Virus record (IMG/VR): IMGVR_UViG_3300021512_000003
Location: 1-64,000 of that record
DNA: 64,000 bases
Reading direction: 5' to 3' (one strand)
Source of the DNA: a virus
The notes under the pieces are model-generated. The model ran no database searches, was not told where the DNA came from, and worked only from the letters and a program-made list of their open reading frames with translations. Both the position numbers and the translations under genes were made by a program. Position 1 is the first letter of the stretch; the number at the start of each line of letters is the position of its first letter. Positions 1,398 to 5,236 of the stretch are shown here, piece after piece.

Positions 1398-4300
1398 CTA
1401 CCCTAGATTACCATAATAACCTTCTTTAATTGCATCATAAAGGTTTGCTGCTGTGTGTATTTCACCATCATATTCTACCACAGTGTCTCCAGTAATGCTA
1501 TGGTTATTTCCATCTTCTGTCTTAAACTCATACAACGTCTTTTTTAAATCTTCATCTTTCACCAACACTCCTTGGAATACTTCTGGGTTAAATCTAAAGC
1601 ATGTGACCCCCTTCAAGCCAGCATCATAAGCTTTAAGGAACACATCTCTAAACTCATCAAAAGGGGCTTCTGTAGGTATTTGTATTGTTTTCGATATTGA
1701 TGAATCTATCCATGTTTGTGCAGCAGCTTGCATAGCTATATGTTGCTCTGGAGTAATATCTGTAGCGTCTTGAAAGACCACCTCTTCTTCCTTACCTAGA
1801 GACCTTGCCACAAGAAGCTCATAACTACAAACTTCAACGGCCTCTTTAGACTTCTTCCCTTGTACAATCACATTCCTTGTGTATTTGTGTGCGAAAGATT
1901 GCTCTATTCCCGCTGAACAGTTATTCCCAACACTAAGAGATAGAGTTCCAGTCGGGGCCACACTATTCGCGTGAGTGAACCTACACCCATACTTCTTCAA
2001 ATCTTCACCTAGAGAACCACCCTCTGCCTCGTCTGCTTTTATAACCCTCTGCATGAAAACACCCTTACACCACAGAGACAGGTTATCACTCTCAGCCAAT
2101 AAAGGGGCCATACCCTTCGCCTTAGCGAGTTTTACGCCTTCCCTATAGCTACCCAGTGCTAACACCTTAGTAACCTCTCCTGTGAAGGATATGGCCTCCT
2201 CAGAGCCATAGTTTATACCTAGTAGAGAGAGACAAGAGCCTAAGCCTAGATACCCCATACCATGTCTACGCTTAGATAATATCTCTGCTCTTTGTTCTTC
2301 TAGTGGAAGGCCATTAAGTTCTACCACATTATCTAGCATACGAGTAAAGATGGCTATTACTTTGTTGTATGTGTCCCAGTCAAAAGAAGCTTCTTCAGTG
2401 AAGGGGTTTAGTACAAACTTAGTCAGATTTATTGATCCAAGTAGGCAGCTCCCGTGTGGGGGGAGAATTTGTTCACCACAGTTATGTGCATGTAGTCCAT
2501 TTGCATCAAAGGTGTTTATTCCTGTTATCTGAACATCATACACAGCCTCAACACCCTCTTCTGTAACCTCTTCTACTCTGGCAAAGAAACATTCACGATT
2601 TAGTTTACGTTTATAGCTTGCCAGAGCTTGCTGTAGGCGTGTGGCTTTTCTTGTATCTATAAAACCAACCTTGTCCTTGAACTGTGTTAAATTTTCACCA
2701 CTAACAACTAGCTCGTGATTTGCTTTAGTCTTATACTCACTTACTCCACCTCTTCCGTTAGGTAACATCCTTGTACCTGCTGGACGGCGATTTTTATAGA
2801 TAGTTGATACAATGCCTAGACGTAATAACATACGTTGCACCGCTTCAAGCCTAGGTAAGTCCGATTGAGATAGACGCACACTTACGCCTTTTTCCTGTGT
2901 ACCTTGTACAGAGCCATCAGTGTCAAAAAAGCCTCGTAAAAAACCCTTATAGAATTCACTAGAGGCTTTTTCAATCTTAGGAGAGATAACTTTATCTCCA
3001 GCTTGCATACCAACTTCCCGCGCAAGTTTATAAATAGCTGAAAGACTTAAGCGATATTCATTACGTCCTGTAACCTCTGACCAACCTTTAAAGTCACTCC
3101 TGTGAGGCAGTGTCTTTGCTGCTCTCAACGCTTCAACCATCACAGCATTAACACCATCATTAGCTGTTGCAACTTGCTTCCACACAGAGAGAACAGCTGC
3201 ATCCTGCTTCAAAGTCCCGTCTCCTATCAGCAGGCCTAGTAAATAACCTTGTTCTTCAGTGTACTCACCTTGCCATTGTTCCTGCTCTTTGTGCTTATTA
3301 AGTAAAACACAATCACCAACTTTCAGATTAGAGGCCTCACACCACTCTGTTTCAGTGTCATAACGACTAGAACCCACCCTACGCCTGACACGATGGTTTG
3401 GTGTCAGGCGTAACTTATAACCTTCTTTTGTCTGTAAGTTTACAACAGCTTTTGTTGTAGTCTTAAAGAAACCTTCTTTTCCTGAAGCATAAGATACCCC
3501 ATCAACTTGTGCAATAAAAGGTTTACCAATTAAATCACTAACTTGTCTAGCTCCTTTATTTGTTTGCACCCAAGTATCTGCTGTCACACATGGATTACAC
3601 GCCCGAAGCCTTTCGCAGAAGTAATTGTTGTTCTCTCTGTTGGCTTTATCTATAAGAAGGAACCCAGGTTCTGCATAATCATATGCAGTACGCATTAATG
3701 TTTCCCAAATGTCTTTTGCTCTCACAGTCTTATAAACCTTGCAGAGGATCTTGTTATCCTTTACTGTATAACCTGCTTCCCCACAATAGGTTTCCTCCCA
3801 GAACATATCTTTCCATACAAACTCTAAACTCTTGTCGCCCTTCTCTGCTTTAGATGCAGGGAAGAACAGCTTCCAATCTTTATCCTCTTTCACTGCCTCA
3901 ATGAAGTCATCTGTAATCAAGACAGAGAGGTTGAATTGTCTAAACCTTCCAGTCTCTTTCTTAGCAGTAATGAATGCTTCGACATCAGGATGCCATATTG
4001 CAAATGTCGCAATCTGCGCACCACGTCTTCCCCCAGCAGAGCTGATAGTGAAGCACATCTTATCAAAGATGTCCATAAAAGGTAGGGGGCCTGTTGTGTA
4101 AGCACCTACTCCAGAGACTAAAGCACCACTTGGCCTAATCGTAGACATCTCATAGCCAATGCCTGCTCCAGAAGAGAGTGTTATAGCGGCTTGACTGTTT
4201 GATTGCATGATTCCTTCCACAGAATCTTCCACGATTTTTCCAGTAGTACAATTTACCAAGCTTGCAGAAGGCTTATACTCCTCTGCTCCAGCGTTCGCTA

Positions 4301-4517
4301 GTATCCTTCCCGCTGGTGTAGCCCCGCTCTTTAAAGCCCAGAGAAATTCTTTGTACCAGTGAGCAGAATCTTCTTCACAAGCAGAGAGACTTTTTGCTAC
4401 TCTTTTGAAAGAGTCTTCAACAGTTTTATCAACCTCTCCTCCTTCATTGTCATACAGTTTATATTTCTGCTCCCAGATGTTTTGAGATGTAGGCTGAAGT
4501 TCAATATTAGTTCCCAT
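1398..4517 (-). CDS. nrdJ: Adenosylcobalamin-dependent (class II) ribonucleotide reductase with intein
   Basis: 1039 residues, or 669 after intein removal. It reduces ribonucleotides to deoxyribonucleotides for phage DNA synthesis. Visible marks are the LVNCTTG motif near residue 90, the catalytic loop NP-C-GEQ with a second cysteine 11 residues on (CGEQILPPHGSC), and PTGTLSLSVGNNCSAGIEQ towards the C-terminus. These fit the C119/C408/C419 set known from the Lactobacillus enzyme. An intein splits the protein exactly before the catalytic cysteine. The last 45 residues contain no cysteine, so the usual C-terminal shuttle pair is not evident. The start follows AAAGGAG. The gene stands between two cassette arrays. 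Confidence 0.93.
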   Translation of the reverse strand: MGTNIELQPTSQNIWEQKYKLYDNEGGEVDKTVEDSFKRVAKSLSACEEDSAHWYKEFLWALKSGATPAGRILANAGAEEYKPSASLVNCTTGKIVEDSVEGIMQSNSQAAITLSSGAGIGYEMSTIRPSGALVSGVGAYTTGPLPFMDIFDKMCFTISSAGGRRGAQIATFAIWHPDVEAFITAKKETGRFRQFNLSVLITDDFIEAVKEDKDWKLFFPASKAEKGDKSLEFVWKDMFWEETYCGEAGYTVKDNKILCKVYKTVRAKDIWETLMRTAYDYAEPGFLLIDKANRENNNYFCERLRACNPCVTADTWVQTNKGARQVSDLIGKPFIAQVDGVSYASGKEGFFKTTTKAVVNLQTKEGYKLRLTPNHRVRRRVGSSRYDTETEWCEASNLKVGDCVLLNKHKEQEQWQGEYTEEQGYLLGLLIGDGTLKQDAAVLSVWKQVATANDGVNAVMVEALRAAKTLPHRSDFKGWSEVTGRNEYRLSLSAIYKLAREVGMQAGDKVISPKIEKASSEFYKGFLRGFFDTDGSVQGTQEKGVSVRLSQSDLPRLEAVQRMLLRLGIVSTIYKNRRPAGTRMLPNGRGGVSEYKTKANHELVVSGENLTQFKDKVGFIDTRKATRLQQALASYKRKLNRECFFARVEEVTEEGVEAVYDVQITGINTFDANGLHAHNCGEQILPPHGSCLLGSINLTKFVLNPFTEEASFDWDTYNKVIAIFTRMLDNVVELNGLPLEEQRAEILSKRRHGMGYLGLGSCLSLLGINYGSEEAISFTGEVTKVLALGSYREGVKLAKAKGMAPLLAESDNLSLWCKGVFMQRVIKADEAEGGSLGEDLKKYGCRFTHANSVAPTGTLSLSVGNNCSAGIEQSFAHKYTRNVIVQGKKSKEAVEVCSYELLVARSLGKEEEVVFQDATDITPEQHIAMQAAAQTWIDSSISKTIQIPTEAPFDEFRDVFLKAYDAGLKGVTCFRFNPEVFQGVLVKDEDLKKTLYEFKTEDGNNHSITGDTVVEYDGEIHTAANLYDAIKEGYYGNLG
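2481..3590 (-). mobile_element. Intein with LAGLIDADG homing endonuclease in NrdJ
   Basis: 370 residues, host residues 310-679. It begins with Cys1 (CVTADTWVQTNKG), has block B-like TPNHRVR, two LAGLIDADG-type helices (YLLGLLIGDGTL and FLRGFFDTDGSV) and ends GLHAHN followed by the catalytic Cys of NrdJ as the +1 residue. All residues needed for splicing (C1, block B TxxH, terminal HN, +1 C) are present, so it is probably active. Confidence 0.93.
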
Positions 4518-4909: not shown

Positions 4910-5236
4910 ATGATAAAAACAGACGACTCTATGAACACCTACAAGGAAAATTTATCAAAGGCTTTTGATACTAATTTACCTGAAGCAGATAAAACAGAAC
5001 TCTTAACCTACTTTCTAAATTTTAAGTCTCAAACTATCAACCATGTCAACGGCTGTCCCCCTAAAGCACAAGAAGCTGTAAATCTTCTTCAAACTTCACT
5101 AAATAAAGCCAATAAGAGCAGCGATAAACAAAGTCACTGGTATCAAAAACCAATAGGTATTATCTTCCTTAGTGTTGTTGGTATCACTTTGGCTTGGCTC
5201 TTGAGACATCTGCTAACCCCTTACATACAAATATAA
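4910..5236 (+). CDS. Cassette protein with C-terminal membrane anchor
   Basis: 108 residues: a soluble helical N-terminal part and one hydrophobic segment at about residues 83-101 near the end. It is in the canonical cassette orientation, and its stop codon TAA is part of the following attC (ATAACAAG), as in many Vibrio cassettes. It is the first cassette after attI-like copy A. Function not recognised. Confidence 0.75.
   Translation: MIKTDDSMNTYKENLSKAFDTNLPEADKTELLTYFLNFKSQTINHVNGCPPKAQEAVNLLQTSLNKANKSSDKQSHWYQKPIGIIFLSVVGITLAWLLRHLLTPYIQI

Follow-up and report, generated by a model that had tools for sequence, protein, structure and literature searches.

Does an intein that sits exactly at the catalytic cysteine of a phage ribonucleotide reductase (RNR) act as a switch for the enzyme, or is it a mobile element that happens to live there? 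The locus lies in a window of 64,000 nucleotides (the whole stretch analysed, positions 1 to 64,000 of IMG/VR record IMGVR_UViG_3300021512_000003), taken from a virus record of 81,888 bases. Its terminase, portal, major head, tape measure and baseplate wedge genes mark the source as a tailed phage, probably one with a contractile tail; the record also encodes DNA polymerase and primase/helicase. No near-identical phage record was found at high identity for bases 1-24000, and an Rfam scan of the window at gathering thresholds gave zero matches. Our analysis indicates that the insert is very likely a full-length mobile class 1 intein of the gammaproteobacterial class II RNR catalytic-cysteine family, acquired horizontally by a tailed-phage nrdJ gene. 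The coordinates of all features are collected in Table 1.

Table 1. Features of the intein-bearing nrdJ gene, with positions in the window
Feature	Position	Strand	Description or basis
NrdJ precursor CDS, adenosylcobalamin-dependent class II ribonucleotide reductase, NrdJ_Z / NrdJa type, in-frame intein	1398..4517	(-)	1039 aa, single uninterrupted frame
N-extein, 309 aa, C-terminal end ...RACNP	3591..4517	(-)	junction read in translation
Intein, 370 aa, Hint splicing domain and LAGLIDADG homing endonuclease	2481..3590	(-)	precursor residues 310-679
C-extein, 360 aa and stop, begins CGEQILPPHGSC	1398..2480	(-)	junction read in translation
Cys codon at extein -3 (Cys307), giving Cys-Asn-Pro / Cys1	3597..3599	(-)	Thr in nearly all relatives
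Intein Cys1, block A nucleophile	3588..3590	(-)	invariant in alignment of relatives
Block B TPNH (TxxH), intein residues 63-66	3393..3404	(-)	T63 and H66 invariant
LAGLIDADG motif 1 YLLGLLIGDG, intein residues 116-125	3216..3245	(-)	alignment and predicted fold
LAGLIDADG motif 2 FLRGFFDTDG, intein residues 217-226	2913..2942	(-)	alignment and predicted fold
Block F/G VYDV...HAHN: Asp352, penultimate His369, terminal Asn370	2481..2543	(-)	invariant
+1 Cys codon, catalytic (thiyl radical) Cys of NrdJ	2478..2480	(-)	aligns with Cys322 of T. maritima NrdJ

The precursor gave Pfam matches above cut-off to Ribonuc_red_lgC (E 1e-115), LAGLIDADG_3 (E 1e-25) and Intein_splicing (E 5e-14), and its NCBIfam match to NrdJ_Z (TIGR02504; 501 bits versus a cut-off of 400) identifies the host protein as a class II dimeric NrdJ. 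Aligned to Thermotoga maritima NrdJ, the mature phage enzyme retains the catalytic cysteine and the active-site redox pair: Cys90, Cys310 and Cys321 match by position Cys134, Cys322 and Cys333, the cysteines that fill these roles in the T. maritima enzyme. The phage protein deviates at 34 conserved columns; the divergent phage NrdJs L011 and L013 do so at comparable numbers (31 and 37). With its catalytic residues intact and a count of deviations that resembles these two, the idea of a degenerating gene is not supported. Among the changes at conserved columns are some odd ones that involve cysteine (A497C, C601V and T603C in the mature protein), the last two of which make GVTCFRFNP of a motif that reads GCTTFRFNP in relatives. 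Class II dimeric NrdJs commonly have a C-terminal redox/zinc cysteine tail or a separate NrdJb, neither of which is demanded by the TIGR02504 model. The phage ORF lacks the cysteine-rich tail, and a search of the 81.9-kb record, which is possibly incomplete, found no NrdJb-like gene, although such a gene is present in 8 of 9 related contigs. The phage NrdJ may depend on the NrdJb of its host, or else the record is incomplete.

The junctions read ...FCERLRACNP / CVTADTWV...FDANGLHAHN / CGEQILPPHG and place the intein between NP and CGEQ, to the base where the first-pass annotation had put it. All class 1 splicing residues (C1, T63, H66, D352, H369 and N370) are present and invariant among 12 aligned relatives, the +1 residue is a cysteine, and the catalytic aspartates of both LAGLIDADG motifs are likewise there and conserved. 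An AlphaFold model of the intein (pLDDT 89.9, pTM 0.90) shows the intein-endonuclease (Hint) fold, with the TliVMA intein (E 2e-18), PI-PfuI (E 3e-14) and PI-SceI (E 7e-14) as best Foldseek matches in the PDB. That is, we are dealing with a class 1 intein of the two-motif LAGLIDADG type that appears intact by sequence, as had been proposed, and that would be expected both to splice and to cleave DNA. It is the single Intein_splicing match in the whole record.

What makes the placement consequential is that a self-removing insert, of a kind already widespread there in proteobacteria, occupies exactly the key cysteine of NrdJ. When the precursor is aligned with T. maritima NrdJ (PDB 1XJE), the cysteine that follows the terminal HN of the intein falls on chain position 322, the thiyl-radical cysteine of that enzyme. 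The first-pass annotation had claimed that the +1 residue is the radical-bearing cysteine and had named an active-site cysteine elsewhere in the alignment as evidence to the contrary; the alignment puts it precisely at the junction. The intein splits the catalytic N-x-C-x-E signature, with Asn at -2, Cys at +1 and Glu at +3 (Asn and Glu being the conserved substrate-binding pair), and must therefore take the radical cysteine of the enzyme as its own +1 nucleophile. The view that the enzyme would be lost if splicing were imprecise is supported. The precursor would be translated as a single chain without activity, since the intein keeps N(-2) and P(-1) apart from the catalytic C(+1). Autocatalytic splicing would start with a thioester at Cys1 and transesterification to the catalytic cysteine; Asn370 would then cyclise, and an S-N shift would restore CNPCGEQ.

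To find other inteins at this point, we searched viral contigs as well as bacterial and archaeal genomes. A single-sequence intein search of the viral contigs had zero matches, and the relatives came from pattern and alignment searches. Inteins at the site (pattern HN / CGEQPLP) occur in 25 viral contigs and belong to several unrelated types, including one mini-intein of 137 aa; the pattern NP / C.T(G/A)DT gave at least 120 matches in viral contigs, many within RNR genes. The scan of bacterial and archaeal genomes returned at least 518 candidate relatives, of which we kept the best 80, 77 of them reading through the N-terminal junction. At least 76 bacterial NrdJ loci have an intein of the phage intein's family at this NP / C bond; they are mostly gammaproteobacterial, with some from other groups, and Rhodanobacter, Dyella, Halomonas, Xanthomonas, Stutzerimonas and Methylobacter are among the carriers within the best 80 of at least 518. 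Sharing the NP / C(G)EQ bond and common ancestry with these inteins, the phage intein belongs to their family. Its family also occupies the homologous catalytic-cysteine bond of the monomeric class II reductase (RTPR, TIGR02505). The catalytic cysteine of class II RNRs is thus not an unusual intein target.

Intein and host gene have different histories. The nearest intein among the best 80 of at least 518, L343 from Gammaproteobacterium HyVt-414, is 74% identical to the phage intein versus 53% for the exteins, and its gene lies next to nrdJb and ordinary chromosomal-type bacterial genes. In the intein tree the phage intein groups with L343 (node value 98, path 0.48), nested among bacterial inteins. 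In the extein tree the phage NrdJ groups with the intein-less phage NrdJs L005 and L006 (98) and lies at a distance of 2.31 from L343; both trees were quick searches, and the phage NrdJ sits on a long branch (1.41). Since the two trees disagree, the intein appears to have moved horizontally between bacterial and phage nrdJ lineages, and the nesting of the phage copy within bacterial inteins suggests a transfer from bacterium to phage. The locus thereby presents a clear case of intein exchange between bacterial and phage nrdJ genes.

Inteins favour conserved functional sites, so that insertion at an invariant site is expected (PMC2814812). Because of this conserved-site insertion, the intact endonuclease, the patchy presence and the incongruent history, the reading that suits the phage intein best is that of an ordinary mobile parasite. 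Its LAGLIDADG domain would cut intein-less nrdJ alleles at nearly invariant DNA, and repair would copy the intein in. A regulatory role is superfluous for explaining the intein, although a mobile origin may be compatible with its later use as a switch.

One feature of the junction, absent from the first-pass annotation, bears on such a use. At extein position -3 the phage has Cys (CNP / C), in contrast to the Thr or Ser of close relatives. Thr stands there in 114 of the 115 distinct phage NPCGEQPLP sites that have no intein, and among the best 80 of at least 518 bacterial relatives the residue is Thr in 76 and Val in 1 of the 77 sites that carry the same intein. A cysteine at -3 together with Cys1 is the geometry of the engineered CPGC trap. 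Under oxidising conditions, a disulfide between Cys(-3) and Cys1 (C-N-P-C) could block the first splicing step, leaving NrdJ active only in a reduced cytoplasm. There is precedent in the Pyrococcus abyssi MoaA intein, for which PMC10663303, reviewing Callahan 2011, reports a disulfide between an N-extein cysteine and Cys1. As in MoaA and the CPGC trap, an N-extein cysteine lies near Cys1 here; unlike in MoaA, the host protein is an RNR, and the phage disulfide is a prediction from sequence. However, Cys(-3) is not specifically tied to the intein, because it occurs in intein-less genes and nearly all carriers have Thr. Without an intein it is found in 46 distinct CNPCGEQ contexts. Most of these are RNRs, many apparently monomeric and RTPR-like, but there are NrdJs too (for example L054, L083 and L084). 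Among the approximately 124 NP / C.T(G/A)DT matches listed, merely 8 have Cys(-3), some of these in RTPR, and T307C is only one of the 34 deviations at conserved columns of a fast-evolving phage NrdJ. We therefore regard redox control as unlikely, and likewise the notion that, through the change from T to C, a homing intein came to serve the phage RNR as a natural redox-gated activator, keeping the enzyme off until the infected cell becomes reducing. Nevertheless, the CNP / C junction offers a cheap and specific handle on whether a phage RNR intein is redox-gated.

Two further accounts of this cysteine were rejected. Co-evolution of Cys(-3) with the intein as a general rule fails, as the residue is found without inteins and is missing from nearly all bacterial carriers. 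Co-conversion with an RTPR gene as donor, for instance L143 (52% intein identity, CNP / C), is not supported, because the intein nests with Thr(-3) bacterial NrdJ inteins and the flanking DNA has no excess similarity to L143 or L343.

Slow splicing could also delay NrdJ activity during infection without any specific trigger, which is what the first-pass annotation had proposed. The precursor must indeed be inactive, its catalytic signature being split, and inteins can be condition-dependent (PMC10663303). But efficient splicing has been measured for two RNR inteins, AaR2 in E. coli (PMC8772380) and NrdJ-1, from the neighbouring site, whose half-time is about 26 s (PMC13123727). Patchy distribution and an intact endonuclease fit a parasite, the nearest NrdJ relatives lack the intein, and the element is shared with distant NrdJ genes of bacteria and does not travel together with the enzyme. 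A switch that delays activity until splicing is hence unsupported, and we consider mere timing very improbable.

NrdJ is not known to have an active-site metal cluster to be loaded at the loop that holds the insertion, and the nearest relatives, L005 and L006, encode NrdJ without an intein. It is therefore hardly credible that the insert serves as a folding or assembly aid that keeps the active site open during maturation and yields a better enzyme, as proposed for the Aquifex R2 intein, even though Aquifex R2 that was expressed together with the intein showed a higher iron occupancy and was roughly twice as active (PMC8772380).

With an ordinary homing intein as the preferred reading, the phage element can be set beside its known counterparts. 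Together they make the class II RNR catalytic cysteine a crowded target of self-splicing elements, with several types of NrdJ and RTPR inteins, a split intein one residue off and a group I intron 6 nt off. Among related phage nrdJ genes, IMGVR_3300027365_000009 (L018) has a 269-aa intein at the same bond, which differs in that an HNH-like segment, identified by eye, takes the place of LAGLIDADG. That of IMGVR_3300009194_000010 (L017) is interrupted 6 nt downstream of the intein site, but by an RNA self-splicing group I intron (RF00028, E 3e-20; approximately 4927-5165) directly after the NPCG codons, that is, after the Gly codon. Intron and inteins (ours and that of L018) thus converge on the same active-site codons. 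In L019 (minus strand, 642-aa frame), a contig with an nrdJ group I intron, an intein also interrupts a protein that, judged by eye, resembles a dCTP deaminase/dUTPase.

Phage RTPR loci with the same intein family (L143:4489-7608, L136, L213, L221 and L140) cross the RNR subclasses; one of them (L213:3158-8644), of 1829 aa, seems to contain an additional intein, with another intein-like match starting near residue 332. The cultured Bacteroides phages DAC16 and SJC03 (L002:1429-4947 and L004:1429-4947) have inteins at the same NP / C bond of an RNR that is annotated merely as 'hypothetical protein'; these are distant, end in Gln and belong to another RNR lineage. The split intein NrdJ-1, by its name also an NrdJ intein, lies at the catalytic NPC motif, but with NPC and SEI as native exteins it is placed one residue downstream and has Ser at +1 (PMC13123727).

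Inteins in nrdJ had already been reported. A 370-aa LAGLIDADG_3 intein was described in 2015 at aa 321-690 of Azotobacter chroococcum nrdJa (Achr_580); it is missing from A. vinelandii and was noted in a few gamma- and betaproteobacteria (PMC4465626). The phage intein shares its length with the Azotobacter one, its insertion bond with L343, from which the likeness in position is drawn, and its host gene, LAGLIDADG_3 domain and class with both. It differs from these gammaproteobacterial inteins in residing in a phage gene, in a much more divergent NrdJ, with Cys rather than Thr at -3.
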